64,000 bases of DNA from Odiellus spinosus. Taxonomy: Eukaryota; Arthropoda; Arachnida; Opiliones; Phalangiidae. The notes under the pieces are model-generated. The model was given only the letters and a program-made list of their open reading frames with translations, made no database searches and had not been told where the DNA came from. A program made the position numbers and the translations under genes. The stretch spans positions 18,873,434-18,937,433 of the forward strand of contig OY987227.1 in assembly GCA_963920705.1 (NCBI GenBank), in the 5' to 3' direction. Positions 1 to 31,478 of this stretch are shown here, in pieces. Each line of letters starts with the position of its first letter. Within the stretch, counting starts at the first letter, position 1.

Positions 1-540
1 AGGGGGTGTATTTATCGATCGGTCGTTTTTACAGGGGGTGTATTTATCGATCGTTCGTTTTTACAGGGGGTGTGTTTATCGATCGGTCGTTTTTACAGCG
101 GGTGTATTTATCGATCGGTCGTTTTTACAGGGGGTGTATTTATCGATCGGTCGTTTTTACAGGGGGTGTATTTATCGATCGGTCGTTTTTACAGGGGGTG
201 TATTTATCGATCGGTCGTTTTTACAGGGGGTGTATTTATCGATCGGTCGTTTTTACAGGGGGTGTATTTATCGATCGGTCGTTTTTACAGGGGGTGTATT
301 TATAGATCGGTCGTTTTTACAGGGGGTGTATTTATCGATCGGTCGTTTTTACAGGGGTGTGTTTATCGATCGGTCGTTTTTACAGGGGGTGTATTTACGA
401 TCGGTCGTTTTTACAGGGGTGTGTTTATCGATGGGCCGTTTTTACAGGGGGTGTATTTATCGATCGGTCGTTTTTACAGGGGGTGTATTTATCGATCGGT
501 CGTTTTTACAGGGGTGTGTTTATCGATCGGTCGTTTTTAC

Positions 541-3500
541 AGGGGGTGTATTTATCGATCAGTCGTTTTTACAGGGGGTGTATTTATCGATCGGTCGTTT
601 TTAGGGGAGTGTATTTATCGATCGGTCGTTTTTACAGGGGGTGTGTTTATCGATCAGTCGTTTTTACAGGGGTGTGTTTATCGATCGGTCGTTTTTACAG
701 GGGGTGTGTTTATCGATCGGTCGTTTTTACAGGGGGTGTATTTATCGCTCGGTCGTTTTTACAGGGGGTGTATTTATCGATCGGTCGTTTTTACAGGGGG
801 TATATTTATCGATCGGTAGTTTTTACAGGGGGTGTATTTATCGATCGGTCGTTTTTACAGGGGGTGTATTTATCGATCGTTCGTTTTTACAGGGGGTGTA
901 TTTATCGATCGGTCGTTCTTACGGGGGGTGTATTTATAGATCGGTCGTTTTTATAGGGGGTGTATTTATCGATCGGTCGTTTTTACAGGGGGTGTATTTA
1001 TCGATCGGTCGTTTTTACAGGGGTGTGTTTATCGATCGGTCGTTTTTACAGGGGTGTGTTTATCGATCGGTCGTTTTTACAGCGGGTGTATTTATCGATC
1101 GGTCGTTTTTACAGGGGGTGTATTTATCGATCGGTCGTTTTTACAGGGGGTGTGTTTATCGATCGGTCGTTTTTACAGGGGTGTCTTTATCGATCGGTCG
1201 TTTTTACAGGGGGTGTGTTTATCGATCGGTCGTTTTTACAGGGGGTGTATTTATCGATCGGTCGTTTTTAGAGGGGGTGTATTTATCGATCGGTCGTTTT
1301 TACAGGGGGTGTGTTTATCGATCGGTCGTTTTTACAGCGGGTGTATTTATCGATCGGTCGTTTTTACAGGGGGTGTATTTTTCGATCGGTCGTTTTTACA
1401 GGGGGTGTATTTACGATCGGTTGTTTTTATAGGGGTGTGTTTATCGATGGGTCGTTTTTACAAGGGGTGTATTTATCGATGGGTCGTTTTTACAGGGGGT
1501 GTATTTATCGATCGGTCGTTTTTAGAGGGGATGTATTTATCGATCGGTCGTTTTTACAGGGGGTGTGTTTATCGATCGGTCGTTTTTACAGGGGTGTGTT
1601 TATCGATCGGTCGTTTTTACAGGGGTGTGTTTATCGATCGGTCGTTTTTACAGGGGGTGTATTTATCGATCGGTCGTTTTTACAGGGGGTGTATTTATCG
1701 ATCGATCGTTTTTACAGGGGGTGTATTTATCGATCGGTCGTTTTTACAGGGGGTGTATTTATCGATCGGTCGTTTTTACAGGGGGTGTATTTATCGATCG
1801 GTCGTTTTTACAGGGGTGTGTTTATCGATCGGTCGTTTTTACAGGGGGTGTATTTATCGATCGGTCGTTTTTACAGGGGGTGTATTTATCGATCGGTCGT
1901 TTTTACAGGGAGTGTATTTATCGATCGGTCGTTTTTACAGGGGGTGTATTTATCGATCGGTCGTTTTTGCAGGGGGTGTATTTATCGATCGGTCGTTCTT
2001 ACAGGGGGTGTATTTATCGATCGGTCGTTTTTACAGGGGGTGTATTTATCGATCGGTCGTTTTTACAGGGGGTGTATTTATCGATCGGTCGTTTTTACAG
2101 GGGGTGTGTTTATCGATCGGTCGTTTTTACAGGGGGTGTGTTTATCGATCGGTCGTTTTTACAGCGGGTGTATTTATCGATCGGTCGTTTTTACAGGGGG
2201 TGTATTTATCGATCGGTCGTTTTTACAGGGGGTGTATTTATCGATCGGTCGTTTTTACAGGGGGTGTATTTATCGATCGGTCGTTTTTACAGGGGGTGTA
2301 TTTATCGATCGGTCGTTTTTACAGGGGGTGTATTTATCGATCGGTCGTTTTTACAGGGGGTGTATTTATAGATCGGTCGTTTTTACAGGGGGTGTATTTA
2401 TCGATCGGTCGTTTTTACAGGGGTGTGTTTATCGATCGGTCGTTTTTACAGGGGGTGTGTTTATCGATCGGTCGTTTTTACAGGGGGTGTATTTATCGAT
2501 CGGTCGTTTTTACAGGGGGTGTGTTTATCGATCGGTCGTTTTTACAGGGGGTGTATTTATCGATCGGTCGTTTTTACAGGGGGTGAATTTATCGATCGGT
2601 CGTTTTTACAGGGGGTGTATTTATCGATCGGTCGTTTTTACAGGGGGTGTATTTACGATCGGTCGTTTTTACAGGGGGTGTATTTATCGATCGGTCGTTT
2701 TTACAGGGGGTGTATTTATCGATCAGTCGTTTTTACAGGGGGTGTATTTATCGATCGGTCGTTTTTAGGGGAGTGTATTTATCGATCGGTCGTTTTTACA
2801 GGGGGTGTGTTTATCGATCAGTCGTTTTTACAGGGGTGTGTTTATCGATCGGTCGTTTTTACAGGGGGTGTGTTTATCGATCGGTCGTTTTTACAGGGGG
2901 TGTATTTATCGCTCGGTCGTTTTTACAGGGGGTGTATTTATCGATCGGTCGTTTTTACAGGGGGTATATTTATCGATCGGTCGTTTTTACAGGGGGTGTA
3001 TTTATCGATCGGTCGTTTTTACAGGGGGTGTATTTATCGATCGTTCGTTTTTACAGGGGGTGTATTTATCGATCGGTCGTTCTTACGGGGGGTGTATTTA
3101 TAGATCGGTCGTTTTTATAGGGGGTGTATTTATCGATCGGTCGTTTTTACAGGGGGTGTATTTATCGATCGGTCGTTTTTACAGGGGTGTGTTTATCGAT
3201 CGGTCGTTTTTACAGGGGTGTGTTTATCGATCGGTCGTTTTTACAGCGGGTGTATTTATCGATCGGTCGTTTTTACAGGGGGTGTATTTATCGATCGGTC
3301 GTTTTTACAGGGGGTGTGTTTATCGATCGGTCGTTTTTACAGGGGTGTCTTTATCGATCGGTCGTTTTTACAGGGGGTGTGTTTATCGATCGGTCGTTTT
3401 TACAGGGGGTGTATTTATCGATCGGTCGTTTTTAGAGGGGGTGTATTTATCGATCGGTCGTTTTTACAGGGGGTGTGTTTATCGATCGGTCGTTTTTACA

Positions 3501-4850
3501 GCGGGTGTATTTATCGATCGGTCGTTTTTACAGGGGGTGTATTTTTCGATCGGTCGTTTTTACAGGGGGTGTATTTACGATCGGTTGTTTTTATAGGGGT
3601 GTGTTTATCGATGGGTCGTTTTTACAAGGGGTGTATTTATCGATGGGTCGTTTTTACAGGGGGTGTATTTATCGATCGGTCGTTTTTAGAGGGGATGTAT
3701 TTATCGATCGGTCGTTTTTACAGGGGGTGTGTTTATCGATCGGTCGTTTTTACAGGGGTGTGTTTATCGATCGGTCGTTTTTACAGGGGTGTGTTTATCG
3801 ATCGGTCGTTTTTACAGGGGGTGTATTTATCGATCGGTCGTTTTTACAGGGGGTGTATTTATCGATCGATCGTTTTTACAGGGGGTGTATTTATCGATCG
3901 GTCGTTTTTACAGGGGGTGTATTTATCGATCGGTCGTTTTTACAGGGGGTGTATTTATCGATCGGTCGTTTTTACAGGGGTGTGTTTATCGATCGGTCGT
4001 TTTTACAGGGGGTGTATTTATCGATCGGTCGTTTTTACAGGGGGTGTATTTATCGATCGGTCGTTTTTACAGGGAGTGTATTTATCGATCGGTCGTTTTT
4101 ACAGGGGGTGTATTTATCGATCGGTCGTTTTTGCAGGGGGTGTATTTATCGATCGGTCGTTCTTACAGGGGGTGTATTTATCGATCGGTCGTTTTTACAG
4201 GGGGTGTATTTATCGATCGGTCGTTTTTACAGGGGGTGTATTTATCGATCGGTCGTTTTTACAGGGGGTGTGTTTATCGATCGGTCGTTTTTACAGGGGG
4301 TGTGTTTATCGATCGGTCGTTTTTACAGCGGGTGTATTTATCGATCGGTCGTTTTTACAGGGGGTGTATTTATCGATCGGTCGTTTTTACAGGGGGTGTA
4401 TTTATCGATCGGTCGTTTTTACAGGGGGTGTATTTATCGATCGGTCGTTTTTACAGGGGGTGTATTTATCGATCGGTCGTTTTTACAAGGGGTGTATTTA
4501 TCGATCGGTCGTTTTTACAGGGGGTGTATTTATAGATCGGTCGTTTTTACAGGGGGTGTATTTATCGATCGGTCGTTTTTACAGGGGTGTGTTTATCGAT
4601 CGGTCGTTTTTACAGGGGGTGTGTTTATCGATCGGTCGTTTTTACAGGGGGTGTATTTATCGATCGGTCGTTTTTACAGGGGGTGTGTTTATCGATCGGT
4701 CGTTTTTACAGGGGGTGTATTTATCGATCGGTCGTTTTTACAGGGGGTGAATTTATCGATCGGTCGTTTTTACAGGGGGTGTATTTATCGATCGGTCGTT
4801 TTTACAGGGGGTGTATTTACGATCGGTCGTTTTTACAGGGGGTGTATTTA
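541..4850 (+). repeat. Higher-order repeat, about 2,164 bp in tandem, within the left arm
   Basis: The order of variant monomers from about 541 to 2,704 recurs at 2,705 to about 4,850 with a constant offset of 2,164 bp. Marker monomers show the register: the TTTTTAGGGGAGTG junction at 600 and 2,764, the TGTCTTTATCG variant near 1,183 and 3,347, the monomer with GATCGGTTG near 1,415 and 3,579, and the TGAATTTATC variant at 2,585 and 4,749. The copies differ at only a few bases, for example CAGGGGG against CAAGGGG near 2,330 and 4,494. A further partial copy with indels lies at about 7,290-8,000. This indicates recent segmental amplification. Confidence 0.9.
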
Positions 4851-5634
4851 TCGATCGTTCGTTTTTACAGGGGGTGTATTTATCGATCGGTCGTTCTTAC
4901 GGGGGGTGTATTTATAGATCGGTCGTTTTTACAGGGGTGTGTTTATCGATCGGTCGTTTTTACAGGGGGTGTATTTATCGATCGGTCGTTTTTACAGGGG
5001 GTGTATTTATCGATCGGTCGTTTTTAGGGGAGTGTATTTATCGATCGGTCGTTTTTACAGGGGTGTGTTTATCGATCGGTTGTTTTTACAGGGGGTGTGT
5101 TTATCGATCGGTCGTTTTTACAGGGGGTGTGTTTATCGATCGGTCGTTTTTACAGGGGTGTGTTTATCGATCGGTCGTTTTTACAGGGGGTGTGTTTATC
5201 GATCGGTCGTTTTTACAGGGGGTGTATTTATCGCTCGGTCGTTTTTACAGGGGGTGTATTTATCGATCGGTCGTTTTTACAGGGGGTATATTTATCGATC
5301 GGTCGTTTTTACAGGGGGTGTATTTATCGATCGGTCGTTTTTACAGGGGGTGTATTTATCGATCGTTCGTTTTTACAGGGGGTGTGTTTATCGATCGGTC
5401 GTTTTTACAGCGGGTGTATTTATCGATCGGTCGTTTTTACAGGGGGTGTATTTATCGATCGGTCGTTTTTACAGGGGGTGTATTTATCGATCGGTCGTTT
5501 TTACAGGGGGTGTATTTATCGATCGGTCGTTTTTACAGGGGGTGTATTTATCGATCGGTCGTTTTTACAGGGGGTGTATTTATCGATCGGTCGTTTTTAC
5601 AGGGGGTGTATTTATCGATCGGTCGTTTTTACAG

Positions 5635-6490
5635 GGGTGTGTTTATCGATCGGTCGTTTTTACAGGGGGTGTATTTACGATCGGTCGTTTTTACAGGGGT
5701 GTGTTTATCGATGGGCCGTTTTTACAGGGGGTGTATTTATCGATCGGTCGTTTTTACAGGGGGTGTATTTATCGATCGGTCGTTTTTACAGGGGTGTGTT
5801 TATCGATCGGTCGTTTTTACAGGGGGTGTATTTATCGATCGGTCGTTTTTACAGGGGGTGTATTTATCGATCGGTCGTTTTTAGGGGAGTGTATTTATCG
5901 ATCGGTCGTTTTTACAGGGGGTGTGTTTATCGATCAGTCGTTTTTACAGGGGTGTGTTTATCGATCGGTCGTTTTTACAGGGGGTGTGTTTATCGATCGG
6001 TCGTTTTTACAGGGGGTGTATTTATCGATCGGTCGTTTTTACAGGGGGTGTATTTATAGATCGGTCGTTTTTACAGGGGGTGTATTTATCGATCGGTCGT
6101 TTTTACAGGGGTGTGTTTATCGATCGGTCGTTTTTACAGGGGGTGTATTTACGATCGGTCGTTTTTACAGGGGTGTGTTTATCGATGGGCCGTTTTTACA
6201 GGGGGTGTATTTATCGATCGGTCGTTTTTACAGGGGGTGTATTTATCGATCGGTCGTTTTTACAGGGGTGTGTTTATCGATCGGTCGTTTTTACAGGGGG
6301 TGTATTTATCGATCGGTCGTTTTTACAGGGGGTGTATTTATCGATCGGTCGTTTTTAGGGGAGTGTATTTATCGATCGGTCGTTTTTACAGGGGGTGTGT
6401 TTATCGATCAGTCGTTTTTACAGGGGTGTGTTTATCGATCGGTCGTTTTTACAGGGGGTGTGTTTATCGATCGGTCGTTTTTACAGGGGG
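5635..6490 (+). repeat. Higher-order repeat of about 474 bp (two adjacent copies and one distant copy)
   Basis: A run of diagnostic monomers, comprising a 31-mer, then TGTATTTACGATCGG, then GATGGGCCG, then two normal monomers, begins at about 357, 5,637 and 6,111. The second and third copies are adjacent at a 474-bp offset (about 5,635-6,016 and 6,109-6,490). The first is 5,280 bp upstream. The same segment therefore spread at two distances within the arm. Boundaries are approximate because flanking monomers are nearly identical. Confidence 0.75.
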
Positions 6491-8480
6491 TGTATTTATC
6501 GCTCGGTCGTTTTTACAGGGGGTATATTTATCGATCGGTCGTTTTTACAGGGGGTGTATTTATCGATCGGTCGTTTTTACAGGGGGTGTATTTATCGATC
6601 GTTCGTTTTTACAGGGGGTGTATTTATCGATCGGTCGTTCTTACGGGGGGTGTATTTATAGATCGGTCGTTTTTATAGGGGGTGTATTTATCGATCGGTC
6701 GTTTTTACAGGGGGTGTATTTATCGATCGGTCGTTTTTACAGGGGGTGTATTTATCGATCGGTCGTTTTTACAGGGGTGTGTTTATCGATCGGTCGTTTT
6801 TACAGGGGTGTGTTTATCGATCGGTCGTTTTTACAGCGGGTGTATTTATCGATCGGTCGTTTTTACAGGGGGTGTATTTATCGATCGGTCGTTTTTACAG
6901 GGGGTGTATTTATCGATCGGTCGTTTTTACAGGGGGTGTATTTATCGATCGGTCGTTTTTACAGGGGGTGTATTTATCGATCGGTCGTTTTTACAGGGGG
7001 TGTATTTATTGATCGGTCGTTTTTACAGGGGGTGTATTTATCGATAGGTCGTTTTTACAGGGGATGTATTTTTAGATCGGTCGTTTTTACAGGGGGTGTA
7101 TTTATCGATCGGTCGTTTTTACAGGGGTGTGTTTATCGATCGGTCGTTTTTACAGGGGGTGTATTTATCGATCGGTCGTTTTTACAGGGGGTGTATTTAT
7201 CGATCGGTCGTTTTTACAGGGGGTGTATTTATCGATCGGTCGTTTTTAGAGGGGGTGTATTTATCGATCGGTCGTTTTTACAGGGGGTGTGTCTATCGAT
7301 CGGTCGTTTTTACAGGGGTGTCTTTATCGATCGGTCGTTTTTACAGGGGGTGTGTTTATCGATCGGTCGTTTTTACAGGGGGTGTATTTATCGATCGGTC
7401 GTTTTTACAGGGGGTGTATTTATCGATCGGTCGTTTTTACAGCGGGTGTATTTATCGATCGGTCGTTTTTACAGGGGGTGTATTTTTCGATCGGTCGTTT
7501 TTACAGGGGGTGTATTTACGATCGGTTGTTTTTATAGGGGTGTGTTTATCGATGGGTCGTTTTTACAAGGGGTGTATTTATCGATGGGTCGTTTTTACAG
7601 GGGGTGTATTTATCGATCGGTCGTTTTTAGAGGGGATGTATTTATCGATCGGTCGTTTTTACAGGGGGTGTGTTTATCGATCGGTCGTTTTTACAGGGGT
7701 GTGTTTATCGATCGGTCGTTTTTACAGGGGTGTGTTTATCGATCGGTCGTTTTTACAGGGGGTGTATTTATCGATCGGTCGTTTTTACAGGGGGTGTATT
7801 TATCGATCGATCGTTTTTACAGGGGGTGTATTTATCGATCGGTCGTTTTTACAGGGGGTGTATTTATCGATCGGTCGTTTTTACAGGGGGTTTATTTATC
7901 GATCGGTCGTTTTTACAGGGGTGTGTTTATCGATCGGTCGTTTTTACAGGGGGTGTATTTATCGATCGGTCGTTTTTACAGGGGGTGTATTTATCGATCG
8001 GTCGTTTTTACAGGGAGTGTATTTATCGATCGGTCGTTTTTACAGGGGGTGTATTTATCGATCGGTCGTTTTTACAGGGGGTGTATTTATCGATCGGTCG
8101 TTTTTACAGGGGGTGTTTATCGATCGGTCGTTTTTTACAGGGGGTGTATTTATCGATCGGTCGTTTTTACAGGGAGTGTATTTATCGATCGGTCGTTTTT
8201 ACAGGGGGTGTATTTATCGATCGGTCGTTTTTACAGGGGGTGTATTTATCGATCGGTCGTTTTTACAGGGGGGTGTTTATCGATCGGTCGTTTTTACAGG
8301 GGGTGTATTTATCGATCGGTCGTTTTTACAGGGAGTGTATTTATCGATCGGTCGTTTTTACAGGGGGTGTATTTATCGATCGGTCGTTTTTACAGGGGGT
8401 GTATTTATAGATCGGTCGTTTTTACAGGGGGTGTATTTATCGATCGGTCGTTTTTACAGGGGTGTGTTTATCGATCGGTC

Positions 8481-8520
8481 GTTTTTACAGGGGGTGTAAA
8501 TACACCCTCTGTAAAAACGA
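8481..8520. repeat. Inversion point of the satellite (palindrome centre)
   Basis: At 8,491-8,508 the G-rich monomer end GGGGGTGT runs through AAAT directly into ACACCCTCTG, the C-rich complement of the same satellite. To the left every monomer reads G-rich on the plus strand; to the right every monomer reads C-rich. No unique spacer is present, only about four bases between arms, so the 21-kb array is a near-perfect giant palindrome. It may be a real inverted junction or an assembly fold-back in an unresolvable repeat; the sequence alone cannot tell. Confidence 0.9.
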
Positions 8521-11014
8521 CCGATCGATAAATACACCCCCTGTAAAAACGACCGATCGATAAATACTCCCCTGTAAACGACCGATCGATAAACACCCCC
8601 TGTAAAAACGACCGATCGATAAATACACCCCCTGTAAAAACGACCGATCGATAAATACACCCCCTGTAAAAACGACCGATCGATAAATACACCCCCTGTA
8701 AAAACGACCGATCGATAAACACACCCCTGTAAAAACGACCGATCGATAAACACACCCCCTGTAAAAACGACCGATCGATAAACACCCCCTGTAAAAACGA
8801 CCGATCGATAAATACACCCCCTGTAAAAACGACCGATCGATAAATACACCCCCTGTAAAAACGACCGATCGATAAATACACCCCCTGTAAAAACGACCGA
8901 TCGATAAACACCCCCCTGTAAAAACGACCGATCGATAAACACCCCCCTGTAAAAACGACCGATCGATAAACACCCCCCTGTAAAAACGACCGATCGATAA
9001 ACACACCCCTGTAAAAACGACCGATCGATAAACACACCCCTGTAAAAACGACCGATCGATAAACACACCCCTGTAAAAACGACCGATCGATAAACACACC
9101 CCCTGTAAAAACGACCGATCGATAAATACACCCCCTGTAAAAACGACCGATCGATAAATACACCCCCTGTAAAAACGACCCATCGATAAACACACCCCTG
9201 TAAAAACGACCGATCGTAAATACACCCACTGTAAAAACGACCGATCGATAAATACACCCCCTGTAAAAACGACCGATCGATAAATACACCCCCTGTAAAA
9301 ACGACCGATCAATAAATACACCCCCTGTAAAAACGACCGATCGATAAACACACCCCCTGTAAAAACGACCGATCGATAAACACACCCCCTGTAAAAACGA
9401 CCGATCGATAAACACACCCCCTGTAAAAACGACCGATCGATAAACACACCCCCTATAAAAACGACCGATCGATAAATACACCCCCTGTAAAAACGACCGA
9501 TCGATAAATACACCCCCTGTAAAAACGACCGATCGATAAATACACCCCCTGTAAAAACGACCGATCGATAAAAACACCCCATGTAAAAACGACCGATCGA
9601 TAAATACACCCCCTGTAAAAACGACCGATCGATAAATACACCCCCTGTAAAAACGACCGATCAATAAATACACCCCCTGTAAAAACGACCGATCGATAAA
9701 CACACCCCCTGTAAAAACGACCGATCGATAAACACACCCCCTGTAAAAACGACCGATCGATAAACACACCCCTGTAAAAACGACCGATCGATAAACACAC
9801 CCCCTATAAAAACGACCGATCGATAAATAAACCCCCTGTAAAAACGACCGATCGATAAATACACCCCCTGTAAAAACGACCGATCGATAAATACACCCCC
9901 TGTAAAAACGACCGATCGATAAAAACACCCTATGTAAAAACGACCGATCGATAAATACACCCGCTGTAAAAACGACCGATCGATAAACACACCCCCTGTA
10001 AAAACGACCGATCGATAAACACACCCCCTGTAAAAACGACCGAAAGATAAATACACCCCCTGTAAAAACGACCGATCGATAAATACACCCCCTGTAAAAA
10101 CGACCGATCGATAAATACACCCCCTGTAAAAACGACCGATCGATAAATACACCCCCTGTAAGAACGACCGATCGATAAATACACCCCCTGTAAAAACGAA
10201 CGATCGATAAATACACCCCCTGTAAAAACGACCGATCGATAAATACACCCCCTGTAAAAACGACCGATTGATAAATACACCCCCTGTAAAAACGACCGAT
10301 CGATAAATACACCCCCTGTAAAAACGACCGATCGATAAATACACCCCCTGTAAAAACGACCGATCGATAAATACACCCCCTGTAAAAACGATCGATCGAT
10401 AAATACACCCCCTGTAAAAACGACCGATCGATAAATACACCCCCTGTAAAAGGACCGATCGATAAATACACCCCCTGTAAAAACGACCGATCGATAAATA
10501 CACCCCCTGTAAAAACGACCGATCGATAAATACACCCCCTTTAAAAACGACCGATCGATAAATACACCCCCTGTAAAAACGACCGATCGATAAATACACC
10601 CCCTGTAAAAACGACCGATCGATAAATACACCCCCTGTAAAAACGACCGATCGATAAATACAACCCCTGTAAAAGCAACCGATCGATAAATACACCCCCT
10701 GTAAAAACGACCGATCGATAAATACACCCCCTGTAAAAACGACCGATCGATAAATACACCCCCTGTAAAAACGACCGATCGATAAATACACCCCCAGTAA
10801 AAACGACCGATCGATAAATACACCCCCTGTAAAAACGACCGATCGATAAATACACCCCCTGTAAAAACGACCGATCGATAAATACACCCCCTGTAAAAAC
10901 GACCGATCGATAAATACACCCCCTGTAAAAACGACCGATCGATAAATACACCCCCTGTAAAAACGACCGATCGATAAATACACCCCCTGTAAAAACGACC
11001 GATCGATAAATACA

Positions 11015-12930
11015 CCCCCTGTAAGAACGACCGATCGATAAATACACCCCCTGTAAAAACGAACGATCGATAAATACACCCCTGTAAAAACGAGCGATCG
11101 ATAAATACACCCCCTGTAAAAACGACCGATCGCTAAATACACCCCCTGTAAAAACGACCGATCGATAAATAAACCCCCTGTAAAAACGACCGATCGATAA
11201 ATACACCCCTGTAAAAACGACCGATCGATAAATACACCCCCTGTAAGAACGACCGATCGATAAATACACCCCCTGTAAAAACGAACGATCGATAAATACA
11301 CCCCCTGTAAAAACGACCGATCGATAAACACACACCCTGTAAAAACGACCGATCGATAAACACACCCCCTGTAAAAACGACCGATCGATAAATACACCCC
11401 CTGTAAAAACGACCGATCGATAAATACACCCCCTGTAAAAACGACCGATCGATAAATACAACCCCTGTAAGAACTACCGATCGATAAATACACCCCCTGT
11501 AATAACGAACGATCGATAAATACACCCCCTGTAAAAAAGACCGATCGATAAATACACCCCCTGTAAAAACGACCGATCGATAAATACACCCCCTGTAAAA
11601 ACGACCGATCGATAAATACACCCCCTGTAAAAACGACCGATCGATAAATACACCCCCTGTAAAAACGACCGATCGATAAATACACCCCCTGTAAAAACGA
11701 CCGATCGATAAATACACCCCTGTAAAAACGACCGATCGATAAACACACCCCCTGTAAAAACGACCGATCGATAAACACACCCCCTGTAAAAACGACCGAT
11801 CGATAAACACACCCCCTGTAAAAACGACCGATCGATAAATACACCCCCTGTAAAAACGACCGATCGATAAATACACCCCCTGTAAAAACGACCGATCGAT
11901 AAATACACCCCCTGTAAAAACGACCGATCGATAAATACACCCCCTGTAAAAACGACCGATCGATAAATACACCCCCTGTAAAAACGACCGATCGATAAAT
12001 ACACCCCCTGTAAAAACGACCGATCGATAAATACACCCCCTGTAAGAACGACCGATCGATAAATACACCCCCTGTAAAAACGAACGATCGATAAATACAC
12101 CCCTGTAAAAACGACCGATCGATAAATACACCCCCTGTAAAAACGACCGATCGCTAAATACACCCCCTGTAAAAACGACCGATCGATAAATACACCCCCT
12201 GTAAAAACGACCGATCGATAAATACACCCCTGTAAAAACGACCGATCGATAAATACACCCCCTGTAAGAACGACCGATCGATAAATACACCCCCTGTAAA
12301 AACGAACGATCGATAAATACACCCCCTGTAAAAACGACCGATCGATAAACACACCCCCTGTAAAAACGACCGATCGATAAACACACCCCCTGTAAAAACG
12401 ACCGATCGATAAATACACCCCCTGTAAAAACGACCGATCGATAAATACACCCCCTGTAAAAACGACCGATCGATAAATACAACCCCTGTAAGAACTACCG
12501 ATCGATAAATACACCCCCTGTAATAACGAACGATCGATAAATACACCCCCTGTAAAAAAGACCGATCGATAAATACACCCCCTGTAAAAACGACCGATCG
12601 ATAAATACACCCCCTGTAAAAACGACCGATCGATAAATACACCCCCTGTAAAAACGACCGATCGATAAATACACCCCCTGTAAAAACGACCGATCGATAA
12701 ATACACCCCCTGTAAAAACGACCGATCGATAAATACACCCCCTGTAAAAACGACCGATCGATAAACACACCCCCTGTAAAAACGACCGATCGATAAACAC
12801 ACCCCCTGTAAAAACGACCGATCGATAAACACACCCCCTGTAAAAACGACCGATCGATAAATACACCCCCTGTAAAAACGACCGATCGATAAATACACCC
12901 CCTGTAAAAACGACCGATCGATAAATACAC
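11015..12930 (-). repeat. Higher-order repeat, about 1,021 bp in tandem, within the right arm
   Basis: Marker monomers recur at a constant 1,021-bp offset. The rare pair GTAAGAACTACCG and TAATAACGAACG sits at about 11,467-11,512 and again at 12,488-12,533. The triplet of AAACACACC monomers at about 11,735-11,815 recurs at 12,756-12,836. Only scattered substitutions separate the copies, indicating a recent tandem duplication of about 32 monomers. Confidence 0.85.
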
Positions 12931-15599
12931 CCCCTGTAAGAACGACCGATCGATAAATACACCCCCTGCAATAACGAACGATCGATAAATACACCCCCTG
13001 TAAAAACGACCGATCGATAAATACACCCCTGTAAAAACGACCGATCGATAAATACACCCCCTGTAAAAACGACCGATCGATAAATACACCCCCTGTAAAA
13101 ACGACCGATCGATAAATACACCCCCTGTAAAAACGACCGATCGATAAATACACCCCCTGTAAAAACGACCGATCGATAAATACACCCCCTGTAAAAACGA
13201 CCGATCGATAAATACACCCCCTGTAAAAACGACCGATCGATAAATACACCCCGTGTAAAAACGACCGATCGATAAACACACCCCCTGTAAAAACGACCGA
13301 TCGATAAACACACCCCCTGTAAAAACGACCGATCGATAAACACACCCCCTGTAAAAACGACCGATCGATAAACACACCCCCTGTAAAAACGACCGATCGA
13401 TAAATACACCCCCTGTAAAAACGACCGATCGATAAATACACCCCCTGTAAAAACGACCGATCGATAAATACACCCCCTGTAAAAACGACCGATCGATAAA
13501 TACACCCCCTGTAAAAACGACCGATCGATAAATACACCCCCTGTAAAAACGACCGATCGATAAACACACCCCCTGTAAAAACGACCGATCGATAAACACA
13601 CCCCCTGTAAAAACGACCGATCGATAAACACACCCCCTGTAAAAACGACCGATCGATAAATACACCCCCTGTAAAAACGACCGATCGATAAATACACCCC
13701 CTGTAAAAACGACCGATCGATAAATACACCCCCTGTAAAAACGACCGATCGATAAACACACCCCCTGTAAAAAAGATCGATCGATAAACACAACCCTGTA
13801 AAAACGACCGATCGATAAACACACCCCCTGTAAAAACGACCGATCGATAAATACACCCCCTGTAAAAACGACCGATCGATAAATACACCCCCTGTAAAAA
13901 CGACCGATCGATAAATACACCCCCTGTAAAAACGACCGATCGATAAATACACCCCCTGTAAAAACGACCGATCAATAAATACACCCCCTGCAAAAACGAC
14001 CGATCGATAAATACACCCCCTGTAAAAACGACCGATCGATAAATACACCCCCTGTAAAAACGACCGATCGATAAACACACCCCCTGTAAAAACGACCGAT
14101 CGATAAACACACGCCCTGTAAAAACGACCGATCGATAAACACACCCCCTGTAAAAACGACCGATCGATAAATACACCCCCTGTAAAAACGACCGATCGAT
14201 AAATACACCCCCTGGAAAAACGACCGATCGATAAATACACCCGCTGTAAAAACGACCGATCGATAAACACACCCCCTGTAAAAAAGATCGATCGATAAAC
14301 ACAACCCTGTAAAAACGACCGATCGATAAACACACCCCCTGTAAAAACGACCGATCGATATATACACCCCCTGTAAAAACGACCGATCGATAAATACACC
14401 CCCTGTAAAAACGACCGATCGATAAATACACCCCCTGTAAAAACGACCGATCGATAAATACACCCCCTGTAAAAACGACCGATCGATAAATACACCCCCT
14501 GCAAAAACGACCGATCGATAATTACACCCCCTGTAAAAACGACCGATCGATATATACACCCCCTGTAAAAACGACCGATCGATAAACACACCCCCTGTAA
14601 AAACGACCGATCGATAAACACACCCCCTGTAAAAACGACCGATCGATAAATACACCCCCTGTAAAAACGACCGATCGATAAACACACCCCCTGTAAAAAC
14701 GACCGATCGATAAACACACCCCCTGTAAAAACGACCTATCGATAAATACACCCCCTGTAAAAACGACCGATCGATAAATACACCCCCTGTAAAAACGACC
14801 GATCGATAAATACACCCCCTGTAAAAACGACCGATCGATAAATACACCCCCTGTAAAAACGACCGATCGATAAATACACCCCCTGTAAAAACGACCGATC
14901 GATAAATACACCCCCTGTAAAAACGACCGATCGATAAATACACCCCCTGTAAAAACGACCGATCGATAAATACACCCCCTGTAAAAACGACCGATCGATA
15001 AATACACCCCCTGTAAAAACGACCGATCGATAAATACACCCCCTGTAAAAACGACCGATCGATAAACACACCCCCTGTAAAAACGACCGATCGATAAACA
15101 CACCCCCTTTAAAAACGACCGATCGATAAATACACCCCCTGTAAAAACGACCGATCGATAAATACACCCCCTGTAGAAACGACCGATCGATAAATACACC
15201 CGCTGTAAAAACGACCGATCGATAAATACACCCCCTGTAAAAACGACCGATCGATAAATACACCCCCTGTAAAAACGACCGATCGATAAATACACCCCCT
15301 TTAAAAACGAACGATCGATAAATACACCACCTGTAAAAACGACCGATCGATAAATACACCCCCTGTAAAAACGACCGATCGATAAATACACCCTTGTAAA
15401 AACGACCGATCGATAAATACACCCCCTGTAAAAACGACCGATCGATAAATACACCCCCTGTAAAAACGACCGATCGATAAATACACCCCCTGTAAAAACG
15501 ACCGATCGATAAATACACCCCCTGTAAAAACGACCGATCGATAAACACACCCCCTGTAAAAACGACCGATCGATAAACACACCCCCTGTAAGAACGACC

Positions 15600-18500
15600 G
15601 ATCGATAAATACACCCCCTGTAAAAACGAACGATCAATAAATACACCCCTGTAAAAACGACCGATCGATAAATACACCCCCTGTAAAAACGACCGATCGA
15701 TAAATACACCCCCTGTAAAAACGACCGATCGATAAATACACCCCTGTAAAAACGACCGATCGATAAATACACCCCCTAAAAAACGACCGATCGATAAATA
15801 CACCCCCTGTAAAAACGACCGATCGCTAAATACACCCCCTGTAAAAACGACCGATCGATAAATACACCCCCTGTAAAAACGACCGATCGATAAATACACC
15901 ACTGTAAAACCGACCGATCGATAAATACACCCCCTGTAAAAACGACCGATCGATAAATACACCCCCTGTAAAAACGACCGATCGATAAACACACCCCCTG
16001 TAAAAACGACCGATCGATAAATACACCCCCTCTAAAAACGACCGATCGATAAATACACCCCCTGTAAAAACGACCGATCGATAAATACACCCCCTGTAAA
16101 AACGACCGATCGATAAATACACCCCCTGTAAAAACGACCGATCGATAAACACACCCCTGTAAAAACGACCGATCGATAAATACACCCCCTGTAAAAACGA
16201 CCGATCGATAAATACACCCCCTGTAAAAACGACCGATCGATAAATACACCCCCTGTAAAAACGACCGATCGATAAATACACCCCCTGTAAAAACGACCGA
16301 TCGATAAATACACCCCCTGTAAAAACGACCGATCGATAAATACACCCCCTGTAAAAACGACCGATCGATAAATACACCCCCTGTAAAAACGACCGATCGA
16401 TAAATACACCCCCTGTAAAAACGACCGATCGATAAATACACCCCCTGTAAAAACGACCGATCGATAAATACACCCCTGTAAAAACGACCGATCGATAAAT
16501 ACACCCCCTGTAAAAACGACCGATCGCTAAATGCAACCCCTGTAAAAACGACCGATCGATAAATACACCCCTGTAAAAACGACCGATCGATAAATACACC
16601 CCCTGTAAAAACGACCGATCGATAAATACACCCCTGTAAAAACGACCGATCGATAAATACACCCCCTGTAAAAACGACCGATCGCTAAATGCAACCCCTG
16701 TAAAAACGACCGATCGATAAATACACCCCTGTAAAAACGACCGATCGATAAATACACCCCCTGTAAAAACGACCGATCGATAAATACACCCCCTGTAAAA
16801 ACGACCGATCGATAAATACACCCCCTGTAAAAACGACCGATCGATAAATACACCCCCTGAAAAACGACCGATCGATAAATACACCCCCTGTAAAAACGAC
16901 CGATCGATAAATACACCCCCTGTAAAAACGACCGATCGATAAATACACCCCCTGTAAAAACGACCGATCGATAAACACACCCCCTGTAAAAACGACCGAT
17001 CGATAAACACACCCCCTGTAAGAACGACCGATCGATAAATACACCCCCTGTAAAAACGAACGATCGATAAATACACCCCTGTAAAAACGACCGATCGATA
17101 AATACACCCCCTGTAAAAACGACCGATCGCTAAATGCAACCCCTGTAAAAACGACCGATCGATAAATACACCCCTGTAAAAACGACCGATCGATAAATAC
17201 ACCCCCTGTAAAAACGACCGATCGCTAAATGCAACCCCTGTAAAAACGACCGATCGATAAATACACCCCTGTAAAAACGACCGATCGATAAATACACCCC
17301 CTGTAAAAACGACCGATCGATAAATACACCCCTGTAAAAACGACCGATCGATAAATACACCCCCTGTAAAAACGACCGATCGCTAAATGCAACCCCTGTA
17401 AAAACGACCGATCGATAAATACACCCCTGTAAAAACGACCGATCGATAAATACACCCCCTGTAAAAACGACCGATCGATAAATACACCCCCTGTAAAAAC
17501 GACCGATCGATAAATACACCCCCTGTAAAAACGACCGATCGATAAATACACCCCCTGAAAAACGACCGATCGATAAATACACCCCCTGTAAAAACGACCG
17601 ATCGATAAATACACCCCCTGTAAAAACGACCGATCGATAAATACACCCCCTGTAAAAACGACCGATCGATAAACACACCCCCTGTAAAAACGACCGATCG
17701 ATAAACACACCCCCTGTAAGAACGACCGATCGATAAATACACCCCCTGTAAAAACGAACGATCGATAAATACACCCCTGTAAAAACGACCGATCGATAAA
17801 TACACCCCCTGTAAAAACGACCGATCGCTAAATGCAACCCCTGTAAAAACGACCGATCGATAAATACACCCCTGTAAAAACGACCGATCGATAAATACAC
17901 CCCCTGTAAAAACGACCGATCGATAAATACACCCCCTGTAAAAACGACCGATCGATAAATACACCCCCTGAAAAACGACCGATCGATAAATACACCCCCT
18001 GTAAAAACGACCGATCGATAAATACACCCCCTGTAAAAACGACCGATCGATAAATACACCCCCTGTAAAAACGACCGATCGATAAACACACCCCCTGTAA
18101 AAACGACCGATCGATAAACACACCCCCTGTAAGAACGACCGATCGATAAATACACCCCCTGTAAAAACGAACGATCAATAAATACACCCCTGTAAAAACG
18201 ACCGATCGATAAATACACCCCCTGTAAAAACGACCGATCGATAAATACACCCCCTGTAAAAACGACCGATCGATAAATACACCCCTGTAAAAACGACCGA
18301 TCGATAAATACACCCCCTGTAAAAACGACCGATCGATAAATACACCCCCTGTAAAAACGACCGATCGCTAAATACACCCCCTGTAAAAACGACCGATCGA
18401 TAAATACACCCCCTGTAAAAACGACCGATCGATAAATACACCACTGTAAAACCGACCGATCGATAAATACACCCCCTGTAAAAACGACCGATCGATAAAT

Positions 18501-19220
18501 ACACCCCCTGTAAAAACGACCGATCGATAAACACACCCCCTGTAAAAACGACCGATCGATAAATACACCCCCTCTAAAAACGACCGATCGATAAATACAC
18601 CCCCTGTAAAAACGACCGATCGATAAATACACCCCCTGTAAAAACGACCGATCGATAAATACACCCCCTGTAAAAACGACCGATCGATAAACACACCCCT
18701 GTAAAAACGACCGATCGATAAATACACCCCCTGTAAAAACGACCGATCGATAAATACACCCCCTGTAAAAACGACCGATCGATAAATACACCCCCTGTAA
18801 AAACGACCGATCGATAAATACACCCCCTGTAAAAACGACCGATCGATAAATACACCCCCTGTAAAAACGACCGATCGATAAATACACCCCCTGTAAAAAC
18901 GACCGATCGATAAATACACCCCCTGTAAAAACGACCGATCGATAAATACACCCCCTGTAAAAACGACCGATCGATAAATACACCCCTGTAAAAACGACCG
19001 ATCGATAAATACACCCCCTGTAAAAACGACCGATCGCTAAATGCAACCCCTGTAAAAACGACCGATCGATAAATACACCCCTGTAAAAACGACCGATCGA
19101 TAAATACACCCCCTGTAAAAACGACCGATCGATAAATACACCCCTGTAAAAACGACCGATCGATAAATACACCCCCTGTAAAAACGACCGATCGCTAAAT
19201 GCAACCCCTGTAAAAACGAC
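15600..19220 (-). repeat. Complex higher-order repeats of about 413, 698 and 2,510-2,542 bp
   Basis: The segment around 15.6-16.7 kb recurs at about 18.15-19.2 kb, with an offset of 2,542 bp that drops to 2,510 bp, one monomer less. Between them a block carrying the CTAAATGCAACCCC monomer and a CCCCCTGAAAAACG deletion monomer repeats at 698 bp (16,527 to 17,225) and then at about 413 bp (17,710 to 18,123). Overlapping periods of this kind are what repeated unequal exchange would leave. Exact breakpoints need a dot plot. Confidence 0.75.
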
Positions 19221-20989
19221 CGATCGATAAATACACCCCTGTAAAAACGACCGATCGATAAATACACCCCCTGTAAAAACGACCGATCGATAAATACACC
19301 CCCTGTAAAAACGACCGATCGATAAATACACCCCCTGAAAAACGCCCGATCGATAAATACACCCCCTGTAAAAACGACCGATCGATAAATACACCCCCTG
19401 TAAAAACGACCGATCGATAAACACACCCCTGTAAAAACGATCGATCGATAAATACACCCCCTGTAAAAACGACCGATCGATAAATACACCCCCTGTAAAA
19501 ACGACCGATTGATAAATACACCCCCTGTAAAAACGACCGATCGATAAATACACCCCCTGTAAAAACGACCGATCGATAAATACACCCCCTGTAAAAACGA
19601 CCGATCGATAAATACACCCCCTGTAAAAACGACCGATCGATAAATACACCCCCTGTAAAAACGACCGATCGATAAATACACCCCCTGTAAAAACGACCGA
19701 TCGATAAATACACCCCCTGTAAAAACGACCGATCGATAAATACACCCCCTGTAAAAACGACCGATTGATAAATACACCCCCTGTAAAAACGACCGATCGA
19801 TAAATACACCCCCTGTAAAAACGACCGATCGATAAATACACCCCCTGTAAAAACGACCGATCGATAAATACACCCCCTGTAAAAACGACCGATCGATAAA
19901 TACACCCCCTGTAAAAACGACCGATCGATAAATACACCCCCTGTAAAAACGACCGATCGATAAATACACCCCCTGTAAAAACGACCGATCGATAAATACA
20001 CCCCCTGTAAAAACGACCGATCGATAAATACACCCCCTGTAAAAACGACCGATCGATAATTACACCCCCTGAAAAACGACCGATCGATAAATACACCCCC
20101 TGTAAAAACGACCGATCGATAAATACACCCCCTGTAAAAACGACCGATCGATAAACACACCCATGTAAAAACGATCGATCGATAAATACACCCCCTGTAA
20201 AAACGACCGATCGATAAATACACCCCCTGTAAAAACGACCGATTGATAAATACACCCCCTGTAAAAACGACCGATCGATAAATACACCCCCTGTAAAAAC
20301 GACCGATCGATAAATACACCCCCCTGTAAAAACGACCGATTGATAAATACACCCCCTGTAAAAACGACCGATCGATAAATACACCCCCTGTAAAAACGAC
20401 CGATCGATAAATACACCCCCTGTAAAAACGACCGATCGATAAATACACCCCCTGTAAAAACGACCGATCGATAAATACACCCCCTGTAAAAACGACCGAT
20501 CGATAAATACACCCCCTGTAAAAACGACCGATCGATAAATACACCCCCTGTAAAAACGACCGATCGATAAATACACCCCCTGTAAAAACGACCGATTGAT
20601 AAATACACAACCTGTAAAAACGACCGATCGATAAATACACCCCCTGTAAAAACGACCGATCGATAAATACACCCCCTGTAAAAACGACCGATCGATAAAT
20701 ACACCCCCTGTAAAAACGACCGATCGATAAATACACCCCCTGTAAAACGACCGATCGATAAATACACCCCCTGTAAAAACGACCGATCGATAAATACACC
20801 CCCTGTAAAAACGACCGATCGATAAATACACCCCCTGTAAAAACGACCGATCGATAAATACACCCCCTGTAAAAACGACCGATCGATAAACACACCCCCT
20901 GTAAAAACGACCGATCGATAAACACACCCCCTGTAAAAACGACCGATCGATAAATACACCCCCTGTAAAAACGACCGATCGATAAATAT

Positions 20990-21121
20990 ACAGAAAAAAG
21001 TTTATATCTTATTCTTAGATTGCGGTCTAAAGGGACTATTTTCAATGGGATGTATATTCATTCATTTTTATTAAGAAAAACATTTTTCGGTCCATTGGGA
21101 TTCGGTCGAATGGGAGAATAC
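20990..21121. other. Unique spacer between two satellites
   Basis: About 130 bp of AT-rich non-repetitive sequence separates the end of the 32-bp satellite from the start of the 11-bp satellite. It contains no recognisable gene, terminal repeat or target-site duplication. Its interest is positional: it is the only unique anchor between two unrelated arrays. Confidence 0.7.
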
Positions 21122-23366
21122 CTTGAGATGGGGTTGAGATGGGGTTGAGATGGGGTTGAGATGGGGTTGAGATGGGGTTGAGATGGGGTTGAGATGGGGT
21201 TGAGATGGGGTTGAGATGGGGTTGAGATGGGGTTGAGATGGGGTTGAGATGGGGTTGAGATGGGGTTGAGATGGGGTTGAGATGGGGTTGAGATGGGGTT
21301 GAGATGGGGTTGAGATGGGGTTGAGATGGGGTTGAGATGGGGTTGAGATGGGGTTGAGATGGGGTTGAGATGGGGTTGAGATGGGGTTGAGATGGGGTTG
21401 AGATGGGGTTGAGATGGGGTTGAGATGGGGTTGAGATGGGGTTGAGATGGGGTTGAGATGGGGTTGAGATGGGGTTGAGATGGGGTTGAGATGGGGTTGA
21501 GATGGGGTTGAGATGGGGTTGAGATGGGGTTGAGGTGGGGTTGAGGTGGGGTTGAGGTGGGGTTGAGGTGGGGTTTGAGATGGGGTTTGAGATGGGGTTT
21601 GAGATGGGGTTTGAGATGGGGTTTGAGATGGGGTTTGAGATGGGGTTTGAGATGGGGTTTGAGATGGGGTTTGAGATGGGGTTTGAGATGGGGTTTGAGA
21701 TGGGGTTTGAGATGGGGTTTGAGATGGGGTTTGAGATGGGGTTTGAGATGGGGTTTGAGATGGGGTTTGAGATGGGGTTTGAGATGGGGTTTGAGATGGG
21801 GTTTGAGATGGGGTTTGAGATGGGGTTTGAGATGGGGTTTGAGATGGGGTTTGAGATGGGGTTTGAGATGGGGTTTGAGATGGGGTTTGAGATGGGGTTT
21901 GAGATGGGGTTTGAGATGGGGTTTGAGATGGGGTTTGAGATGGGGTTTGAGATGGGGTTTGAGATGGGGTTTGAGATGGGGTTTGAGATGGGGTTTGAGA
22001 TGGGGTTTGAGATGGGGTTTGAGATGGGGTTTGAGATGGGGTTTGAGATGGGGTTGAGATGGGGTTGAGATGGGGTTGAGATGGGGTTGAGATGGGGTTG
22101 AGATGGGGTTGAGATGGGGTTGAGATGGGGTTGAGATGGGGTTGAGATGGGGTTGAGATGGGGTTGAGATGGGGTTGAGATGGGGTTGAGATGGGGTTGA
22201 GATGGGGTTGAGATGGGGTTGAGATGGGGTTGAGATGGGGTTGAGATGGGGTTGAGATGGGGTTGAGATGGGGTTGAGATGGGGTTGAGATGGGGTTGAG
22301 ATGGGGTTGAGATGGGGTTGAGATGGGGTTGAGATGGGGTTGAGATGGGGTTGAGATGGGGTTGAGATGGGGTTGAGATGGGGTTGAGATGAGGTTGAGA
22401 TGGGGTTGAGATGGGGTTGAGATGGGGTTGAGATGGGGTTGAGATGGGGTTGAGATGGGGTTGAGATGGGGTTGAGATGGGGTTGAGATGGGGTTGAGAT
22501 GGGGTTGAGATGGGGTTGAGATGGGGTTGAGATGGGGTTGAGATGGGGTTGAGATGGGGTTGAGATGGGGTTGAGATGGGGTTGAGATGGGGTTGAGATG
22601 GGGTTGAGATGGGGTTGAGATGGGGTTGAGATGGGGTTGAGATGGGGTTGAGATCGGGTTGAGATCGGGTTGAGATCGGGTTGAGATCGGGTTGAGATCG
22701 GGTTGAGATCGGGTTGAGATCGGGTTGAGATCGGGTTGAGATCGGGTTGAGATCGGGTTGAGATCGGGTTGAGATCGGGTTGAGATCGGGTTGAGATCGG
22801 GTTGAGATCGGGTTGAGATCGGGTTGAGATCGGGTTGAGATCGGGTTGAGATCGGGTTGAGATCGGGTTGAGATCGGGTTGAGATCGGGTTGAGATCGGG
22901 TTGAGATCGGGTTGAGATCGGGTTGAGATCGGGTTGAGATCGGGTTGAGATCGGGTTGAGATCGGGTTGAGATCGGGTTGAGATCGGGTTGAGATCGGGT
23001 TGAGATCGGGTTGAGATGGGGTTGAGATGGGGTTGAGATGGGGTTGAGATCGGGTTGAGATCGGGTTGAGATCGGGTTGAGATCGGGTTGAGATCGGGTT
23101 GAGATGGGGTTGAGATGGGGTTGAGATCGGGTTGAGATGGGGTTGAGATCGGGTTGAGATCGGGTTGAGATCGGGTTGAGATCGGGTTGAGATCGGGTTG
23201 AGATCGGGTTGAGATCGGGTTGAGATCGGGTTGAGATCGGGTTGAGATCGGGTTGAGATCGGGTTGAGATCGGGTTGAGATCGGGTTGAGATCGGGTTGA
23301 GATCGGGTTGAGATCGGGTTGAGATCGGGTTGAGATGGGGTTGAGATGGGGTTGAGATGGGGTTGA
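21122..23366 (+). repeat. G-rich 11-bp satellite array (GAGATGGGGTT family)
   Basis: A tandem array of GAGATGGGGTT, about 200 units, organised in homogeneous blocks. From 21,122 to about 21,530 the unit is canonical, followed by four GAGGTGGGG units. From about 21,573 to 22,053 every unit is 12 bp (one extra T). From 22,054 to about 22,650 the 11-bp unit returns. From about 22,652 to 23,335 the G is replaced by C (GAGATCGGGTT), apart from two small reversions near 23,014-23,050 and 23,100-23,145. The array closes with canonical units. G4 or G3 runs recur every 11 bp with 7-nt loops, so the plus strand can form G-quadruplexes. It is stop-free on both strands in places, giving artificial frames. 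Confidence 0.97.
21573..22053 (+). repeat. 12-bp subblock inside the 11-bp satellite
   Basis: About 40 consecutive units read TTTGAGATGGGG, 12 bp each, without interruption, and are flanked on both sides by 11-bp units. A single extra T was evidently fixed in one unit and then amplified as a block. Because 12 is divisible by three, two overlapping plus-strand frames give pure four-residue repeats (MGFE and GLRW); these are artefacts of the period. Confidence 0.95.
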
Positions 23367-24487
23367 AAGAAGACGAAAGTTTTTCGATTCGATGACGTAT
23401 TTCGTCTTCTTGCACGACGCCGACGCCTACGCCAACGCCGCAGTGAATACAGTAGCTAGACCCCACTAGGGTTGGGTCTAGCTAAAAAGTGGGCCAGCGA
23501 CGCTCATACATATATAGCAACAAATACACTAGTCTCACTAGAAGACATATTCCAAACTCAATGCTTAGCCATCTTGTTTACTAGCTATTTTATGTGGAGC
23601 ACAATTTGAGAAATTTGAGATTAACTCTAGAGATTTTTTGCCAAAAGATGCAATTACAAGCTTGAAGAGTGAATTGGAAGAGTTAATTTGAACATCCGAA
23701 ATGATTTGAAAACGGTTTCAATGTCTCTAGTGTGAACTTACCTTTTGACAAGGTCCGAATCGAGTCAGGTTGCTTTTTTCTTAAATTGAAAAAGCCTCGG
23801 TTCTGAGGCCCCCCTTAGTCGCTCCTTGTCGTTATATAGTGGGTGGAAATTAATGCGGCATTTCCGCCCCCATGATTCTAAGGTTCCAGGGACATTGCCA
23901 ATCTCAAAAACTAGTCTGCTAGCAAAAACTGAGCTGCTAAAAAAATACAAGTTGAAAAATGTTCTTTATTTAATTTATACAGATATTTACGGTTACTTTA
24001 AGTATATATTGCATTATATAGGGCTTTTATATTTAATCATTTTAATCAAAATTTTACGAGTTTCACCTGTTATAACAAATTTTTTGACACTGATCTTTGC
24101 TGAAAAAATTATTGGCCGTAGAGCAACATCCGCCATAGACAAATTCTTCACACTGAGAAGATTCCCGGTTGTACCTGTACCTTTTAAAGAAAGCCATGCA
24201 AGTTATGGACCGTGTCTCCGATTTCTTTATCTCACAGACGTCACCTATTTAAGGATTAAGTAAATAATGTTTATTAATTTACCCCGAATTTCTAATTTAA
24301 GAATAATTGTCAATAACAATTAATAAGGCTTAAAATACGTTGTTAATCGATCTCGTTGTCAATTCAATTAGAAAACATGGCGTTTGAGTTATAATTATAA
24401 AAAGAGGGGCAGGCGTAAAGCCCCGTTTTTCAAGCATATGCTTTTCCACGAGAAGCTTATATGATATATATCAAATTTATTTAAGCC
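23367..24487. other. Gene-free flank with a short hairpin and fold-back remnants
   Basis: No gene is supported here. A small inverted repeat, CTAGACCCCACTAGGGTTGGGTCTAG, is split as CTAGACCC at 23,455-23,462 and GGGTCTAG at 23,474-23,481. Sequence at 23,697-23,745 (ATTTGAAAACGGTTTCAATG followed by TAGTGTGAACTTA) resembles one end of the fold-back family at 24,488 and 40,486. Open frames of 61 and 145 codons at 23,765-24,263 overlap on opposite strands, show no domain and lie in sequence that looks like decayed transposon. Confidence 0.4.
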
Positions 24488-30411: not shown

Positions 30412-31478
30412 CGACTTGGACTGTTAAAAAATCGATTTAGACTTAAAAAATCGATTTAGACTGTTAAAAATCAATTTAGACTGTTAAAAATCGATTTAGA
30501 CTGTTAAAAATCGATTTAGGCTGTTAAAAATCGATTTAGACTGTTAAAAATCGATTTAGACTGTTAAAAATCGATTTAGACTGTTAAAAATCGATTTAGA
30601 CTGTTAAAAATCGATTTAGACTGTTAAAAATCGATTTAGACTGTTAAAAATCGATTTAGACTGTTAAAAATCGATTTAGACTGTTAAAAATCGATTTAGA
30701 CTGTTAAAAATCGATTTAGACTGTTAAAAATCGATTTAGACTGTTAAAAATCGATTTAGACTGTTAAAAATCGATTTAGACTGTTAAAAAATCGATTTAG
30801 ACTGTTAAAAAATCGATTTACACTGTTAAAAAATCGATTTACACTGTTAAAAAATCGATTTAGACTGTTAAAAAATCGATTTAGACTGTTAAAAAATCGA
30901 TTTAGACTGTTAAAAAATCGATTTAGACTGTTAAAAAATCGATTTAGACTGTTAAAAAATCGATTTAGACTGTTAAAAAATCGATTTAGACTGTTAAAAA
31001 ATCGATTTAGACTGTTAAAAAATCGATATAGACTGTTAAAAAATCGATATAGACTGTTAAAAAATCGATATACTGTTAAAAAATCGATATAGACTGTTAA
31101 AAAATCGATATAGACTTAAAAAAATCGATATAGACTTAAAAAAATCGATATAGACTTAAAAAAATCGATATAGACTTAAAAAAATCGATATAGACTTAAA
31201 AAAATCGATATAGACTTAAAAAAATCGATATAGACTTAAAAAAATCGATATAGACTTAAAAAAATCGATATAGACTTAAAAAAATCGATATAGACTTAAA
31301 AAAATCGATATAGACTGTTAAAAAATCGATATAGACTGTTAAAAAATCGATATAGACTGTTAAAAAATCGATATAGACTTAAAAAATCGATAGACTTAAA
31401 AAATCGATATAGACTTAAAAAATCGATATAGACTTAAAAAATCGATATAGACTTAAAAAAAATCGATTTAGACTGTTA
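30412..31478. repeat. A-rich 20/21-bp satellite (ATCGATTT / ATCGATAT family)
   Basis: A tandem array of about 50 units in blocks. The first block is exactly 20 bp (CTGTTAAAAATCGATTTAGA); from about 30,781 one extra A makes 21 bp. From about 31,021 ATCGATTT becomes ATCGATAT. From about 31,110 the CTGTT is shortened to CTT and the A run lengthens, again 20 bp; the CTGTT form returns briefly at 31,310-31,380. The ATCGAT core is palindromic. It shares ATCGAT with the 32-bp satellite but is otherwise unrelated. No coding potential: stops occur in all frames. Confidence 0.97.

Follow-up and report, generated by a model that had tools for sequence, protein, structure and literature searches.

In most descriptions of satellite DNAs, the units follow one another head to tail and inversions are incidental. 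A mirrored organization has been described for several mobile elements. The foldback (FB) elements of Drosophila melanogaster carry 27-31-bp repeats in mirrored tandem blocks with unequal arms, together with conserved inverted ends of 467-479 bp and a 9-bp target duplication (PMC7642927). Tetris, a foldback element of Drosophila virilis, has tandem repeats in its inverted arms and also forms longer satellite-like arrays; its repeats are of ~220 bp, accompanied by flanking domains and target duplications of 8-10 bp (PMC4079207). In Galileo, a member of the P superfamily with defined ends and two or three internal repeats of ~210 bp, the tandem repeats of the inverted arms expand independently on each side (PMC3573991). 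Here we have analyzed a 31/32-bp satellite in a 64-kb stretch of the Odiellus spinosus genome (G000:C3:18,873,434-18,937,433, hereafter the window, i.e., the whole stretch; the genome comprises 443 Mb in 286 contigs), where the satellite lies in two inverted arms that meet at a single strand switch. About 22 two-armed arrays of this one satellite are scattered over the chromosome-scale contigs, with their G-rich strands toward a central switch.

Recurrent two-armed arrays and their polarity

The genome was searched by sequence patterns, and the switches were located with exact 11-base anchors at gaps of 0-30 and 31-61. In the whole genome, exact copies of the 42-base repeat number 2,985 on one strand and 6,098 on the other, and the satellite would total about 0.7 Mb if its density were that of the window array. 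It forms long homogeneous tandem arrays at several genomic places, as expected for satellite DNA. Convergent switches, in which the units point at each other, were found at 15 loci with gaps of 0-30 and at 8 loci with gaps of 31-61, which makes 23 loci including the window, while divergent switches, in which the units point away, numbered 0 and 1, respectively. The lone divergent switch, at C14:12.52 Mb, adjoins a convergent one and forms part of a mini-inversion of ~2 units inside the plus array. Without this mini-inversion, the polarity is 22 convergent versus 0 divergent (two-sided binomial 4.8e-7, a value that assumes independent loci, which shared ancestry may break). The junction strings are distinct at 21 of the 23 convergent loci.

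The arms were probed at -14, -6, +6, and +14 kb from the switch at five loci (20 probes, read by eye) and at +/-1 kb at ten more (20 probes, scripted). Satellite or edge units were plus in five left probes and minus in eight right probes of the first set, the other seven containing neither. The second set yielded nine left plus and nine right minus probes, and the two that the script left undecided hold edge units whose sense, by eye, is as expected. In these 15 further loci, every unit-bearing probe keeps the left plus/right minus polarity. Among the titles listed in searches of open-licence PubMed Central articles, none described same-sense switches in satellites, which is no proof that such switches are absent from the literature. 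If there is one same-sense switch per array at ~22 loci, with junctions that are mostly different, the growth of the satellite would be linked either to descent from a mobile element or to a process with strand polarity, e.g., replication.

A polarity of 22 to 0 is consistent with sorting by replication direction, in which one orientation of the unit with respect to the fork would be the only one to expand or survive. Small inversions would supply both orientations, and an array lying over a change of fork direction would sort into facing half-arrays. The mini-inversion is possible raw material for this process, the two window arms are related to each other (see below), and the C1:19.96 array is seemingly one-armed among the places listed. 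There is also a precedent in the G-rich minisatellite CEB1, since its instability is reported to vary with the strand that serves as the leading template (PMC7063842). However, sorting alone leaves unexplained why both sides carry outer repeat layers, and the 32-mer, with a single G-run per unit, folds poorly alone. We consider this explanation possible but rather unlikely. Also unlikely, and a little more so, is that the satellite acts as a replication compass, stable in one fork orientation, whose switch marks an origin or a fork-merging site; if it were true, such sites could be read from the assembly alone.

The window array and the reality of its switch

The sequence-only reading of the window had described one satellite with a single switch near 8,499 and almost no spacer, and this was confirmed by Tandem Repeats Finder (TRF) and by direct reading. 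The satellite occupies positions 1-20,988. TRF gives a period of 32 on both sides of the switch, with 267.3 copies and 95% matches in 1-8,498 and 392.2 copies and 96% matches in 8,497-20,988, where the unit is reverse-complemented. That reading had also assigned 8.5 and 12.5 kb to the arms. The right arm indeed measures ~12.49 kb, but the left arm is truncated by the window edge: when 200 kb upstream on the same contig were added (264 kb examined), its true start was placed near -5,271, giving ~13.77 kb for this arm and ~26.26 kb for the whole array. No further block of at least 3 satellite units was found beyond this array in the 264 kb.

The switch centre is a 40-bp stem with 2 mismatches and a 2-nt loop. 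Folded as single-stranded DNA, positions 8,460-8,540 reach -42.1 kcal/mol (z -14.3), and 0 of 200 shuffles were as low. The earlier suggestion of a cruciform is therefore supported as a potential of the centre, which could form a hairpin or a cruciform, judging from the stem and the predicted fold energy. By the same reading, the inverted arms might block replication or, if transcribed, yield a fold-back RNA for siRNA or piRNA pathways. That the array is one of many, and that their polarity is one-sided, lay beyond what the single stretch could show to that reading.

A tight palindrome is also what a fold-back in the assembly or a chimeric join could leave, a worry raised in the sequence-only reading. 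A folded read or contig would, however, yield mirrored arms. Outward from the switch, the left and right arms share 94.5% identity over 1,500 bases. The same left segment was also compared with 25 random segments of the right arm, to which it is 94.8-96.2% (mean 95.4%) identical, and with 25 segments of the left arm, for which the values are 94.5-95.7% (mean 95.1%). The switch is thus no mirror, since arm identity there is no higher than for random segments. Informative runs of unit variants in common number 9 inside the left arm, 1 inside the right arm, and 0 between arms, and 17 of 22 recurrent variants are confined to one arm, in an analysis whose segmentation sometimes fuses units. When the left flank (44.7 kb) was compared with the right flank (43 kb) by BLAST, no inverted copy adjoined either outer edge of the array; the matches were one of 246 bp on the same strand, an inverted one of 82 bp (79%) distant from the edges, an inverted one of 32 bp, and others of poly-A type.

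As the arms are not mirror copies, a fold-back assembly error is unlikely, and the same-sense flips at some twenty other genomic places point to a recurrent two-armed structure rather than to such an error. Artefacts would be expected in both polarities, but the clean switches are all of one polarity (22 of 22). Perfect inverted copies on contig C8 show that such structures, real or not, exist in the assembly. Nevertheless, since the arms are unmirrored and 22 more loci (21 when the mini-inversion is set aside) have a same-sense switch, we regard an artefactual switch in the window as very improbable. Strand switches in satellites should not be dismissed as assembly errors.

The C8 structure, at 6,557,978-6,560,036, is a perfect inverted repeat with 454 bp at each end and a 14-bp tandem array in the middle, and a 61-base probe taken 4 kb left of its centre was found again, inverted, on the right. 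Either the sequence was recently duplicated in inverted form, or the assembly folded back here.

The two arms of the window array are nevertheless related. The non-consensus 64-mers found in the opposite arm amount to 20% for the left arm and 18% for the right arm, whereas those of the window arms found elsewhere amount to 0.3-0.6% in a C1 stretch and 3.2-4.4% in a C14 stretch, the two other loci compared; the contrast with C14 is moderate. The longest exact match is 1,505 bp within the left arm, 783 bp within the right arm, 272 bp between arms, and 213-239 bp between loci. The 64-mers in common suggest that the arms stem from one local source or have exchanged some sequence, while the location of the longest exact repeats within arms suggests that these grew mainly by same-strand duplication.

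Outer layers, edges and neighbourhood of the arrays

Inward from the left window edge, 17-18-bp repeats with a G-run give way to a 22-bp form and then to the 32-mer. Comparable outer layers were found at C1:19.96 (19-bp, then 31-bp, mixed with 32-bp further inward), C14:12.52 (16-bp, then 23-bp), C6:9.25 (18-bp), and C12:14.35 (~24-bp, then 31-bp), and outer repeats also exist at C15:12.13, at C1:25.61, and on the right of C14:11.39 and C14:10.21. In the window left side and these eight loci, the outer related repeats share the sense of the 32-mer relative to the array centre. The right window arm shows no 18-22-bp outer layer and borders a spacer and an array of the 11-bp unit TTGAGATGGGG (Table 1); units related to TTGAGATGGGG border other arrays of the 32-bp satellite. 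When switches were sought in the outer 18-23-bp units, only 1 convergent switch, outside a repeat context, and 0 divergent ones appeared. Since the outer units gave no switch within repeats, the strand switch belongs to the 32-bp layer. Our claim of a polarity rule is confined to the 32-bp unit.

The observed polarity and order of layers would also be expected if both ends of a break had been extended along their G-rich 3' strand by satellite copying and then joined. The junctions vary, some of them with short overlaps, and the 12-bp unit at C15:8.55 changes stepwise inward. The junction overlap is weak, however, with few exact cases, and the window arms have variants in common, which independent extensions need not have. 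In the TTGAGATGGGG array at 21,123-23,366, earlier variants reappear, which shows that growth does not proceed stepwise in every case. Moreover, the contig ends carry TTAGG rather than the 32-bp unit: TTAGG arrays were present at 9 of the 20 contig ends read, one of which reads N, and the 32-bp unit at 0 of 20, which led us to reject it as a telomere repeat. Ends of TTAGG are suggestive of an arthropod genome. Taken together, a fusion of extended ends appears improbable.

The C15:8.55 array (C15:8,548,900-8,549,990) changes from its edge inward mostly by one base per step, in the order TTTTAATATCGA x17, TTTTAACATCGA x1, TTTTAACGTCGA x27, and TTTTCACGTCGA x8, after which the forms alternate. 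It is a possible record of directional growth, which is no general rule in view of the reversions in the TTGAGATGGGG array. Three of the contig ends read other than those with TTAGG, the starts of C8, C12, and C15, carry a ~23-bp satellite like ATTTGTGAATCTATACTTGGGAA.

Beyond the TTGAGATGGGG array, the right side is closed by the 122-bp end of an abundant interspersed repeat (1446 first-look candidates, 40 scored; 42 matches listed). This end carries a hairpin at its terminus and a short run of A, and its copies are alike for several hundred bases upstream, with ~52-bp units. The same end, outward-facing, lies on the left of C14:12.52 and on the right of C14:11.39, but being present at 3 of the 7 boundaries reached it was rejected as a general array bound. 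The left side of the window array ends in a dispersed ~88-bp repeat at about -6,768 to -6,681 (45 matches listed of 160 candidates, 40 scored), some copies of which form close inverted pairs. Outward-facing pairs of the 122-bp end at C8 and C2, which carry inverted flanks and not a target duplication, also spoke against such a bound. In the C2 pair (C2:30,601,490-30,634,174), 32 kb separate the two ends, whose inverted flanks are identical over 63 bases, and 10 of 10 interior probes lacked the 32-bp satellite.

The left and right edges of the window array differ in sequence, i.e., they do not form conserved inverted termini of the FB type, and the longest word that the left boundary has in common with the right spacer measures 10 bases and lies away from any edge (at one locus, with element ends undefined). 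Defined element ends were not found at the edges examined.

Table 1. Features of the window array and its right border (window coordinates)
Feature	Position	Strand	Basis
Left arm, 32-bp satellite, G-rich strand on +	1..8498, upstream to ~-5,271	+	TRF, unit blocks
Strand switch (8,498/8,499), centre with hairpin-forming potential	8460..8540	.	Direct reading, folding
Right arm, 32-bp satellite, G-rich strand on -	8499..20988	-	TRF, unit blocks
Non-repetitive spacer, 134 bp, outside right arm	20989..21122	.	Direct reading
Array of 11-bp unit TTGAGATGGGG, 200 copies, variants in blocks	21123..23366	+	TRF, variant runs
Terminal 122 bp of abundant interspersed repeat, outward-facing, truncated at array	23367..23488	+	Matches and copies read

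The minus strand of the window contains 3-beta-HSD-like stretches (35.1-36.3 kb), a BACK domain (46.1-47.2 kb), and EGF domains (60.9-61.4 kb), and thus the array sits in gene-bearing DNA. TRF also found a tandem array of the 20-bp unit AATCGATTTAGACTGTTAAA (52.9 copies) at 30,409-31,478. Rfam and tRNA scans of the window found nothing.

A proposed foldback-like architecture and comparison with known systems

The window array and the 23 convergent loci have inverted arms of tandem short repeats, as FB elements do. We tentatively favour, at somewhat less than even likelihood, a foldback-like architecture of inverted arms that now grow separately, whose polarity was inherited with the two-armed form. 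Originally, short related repeats would have been arranged as an inverted pair of the foldback type. This two-armed form may have dispersed, or formed repeatedly, retaining its polarity, and each arm would then have lengthened separately by same-strand slippage or unequal exchange, with some exchange between the arms of one locus keeping them related. Small deletions at the hairpin-prone centre could create new switch sequences and leave the polarity unchanged. A polarity that was inherited, arms that grew separately, and a centre that was trimmed would account for most of the observations. The arrays may therefore be regarded as working like foldback inverted tandem-repeat arms at satellite size, and we claim neither ongoing mobility nor a host function for them.

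Several observations weigh against this foldback-like reading. That neither shared ends nor, at the one locus compared, a target duplication were found argues against counting the arrays among the FB elements. No outer end is common to the 7 boundaries reached, as the 4 without the 122-bp end differ, and in the window array no word of at least 8 bases is common to the left boundary and positions 23,440-23,560. The nearness of the window arms is relative, because 11-17% of the 64-mers of the C14 stretch (2.9 kb only) are present in them. The C1:19.96 array shows plus matches alone among the first 100 places listed, and it may be one-armed. Six of the 22 clean loci (C1:24.43, C5:10.37, C5:21.17, C12:9.97, C13:17.57, and C14:15.81) were left unprobed away from the switch, although plus matches reach up to the C1:24.43 switch among the matches listed. 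Finally, looser 10-base anchors, run for the opposite sense, yielded 13 places with related sequence, of which 1 is the mini-inversion, 5, when displayed, are short AT-rich hairpins without the CGATCGGTCG core, and 7 were not displayed. One of these seven, C12:9,965,997, and the unprobed switch at C12:9,969,220 are separated by 3.2 kb, so this locus may not be clean.

The opposite-sense hairpins have the form ACACCCCCTGTAAAA..TTTTACAGGGGGTGT, e.g., at C3:11,245,499 and C4:5,961,410, and two of those displayed are near identical. They are possibly seeds or relatives of the satellite.

Fusions between telomeres, of the type of human 2q13, show a G-rich array followed by a C-rich array at a tight junction. 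The satellite arrays are like them in geometry, but the 32-bp unit differs from the TTAGG of the contig ends. In origin-dependent inverted-repeat amplification (ODIRA), inverted copies are reported to arise at short inverted repeats (PMC4689423). This process gives inverted triplications with junctions of both senses, whereas the 32-bp unit shows one sense. Tetris has, like these arrays, tandem repeats in inverted arms, with a unit of ~220 bp instead of 32 bp. The separate expansion of the arms is like that of Galileo, from which the arrays differ in lacking its defined ends. Unlike FB elements, they have arms of ~13 kb, and no conserved inverted ends or target duplication were found here; like FB elements, they consist of short tandem repeats mirrored around a middle, in arms of unequal length.

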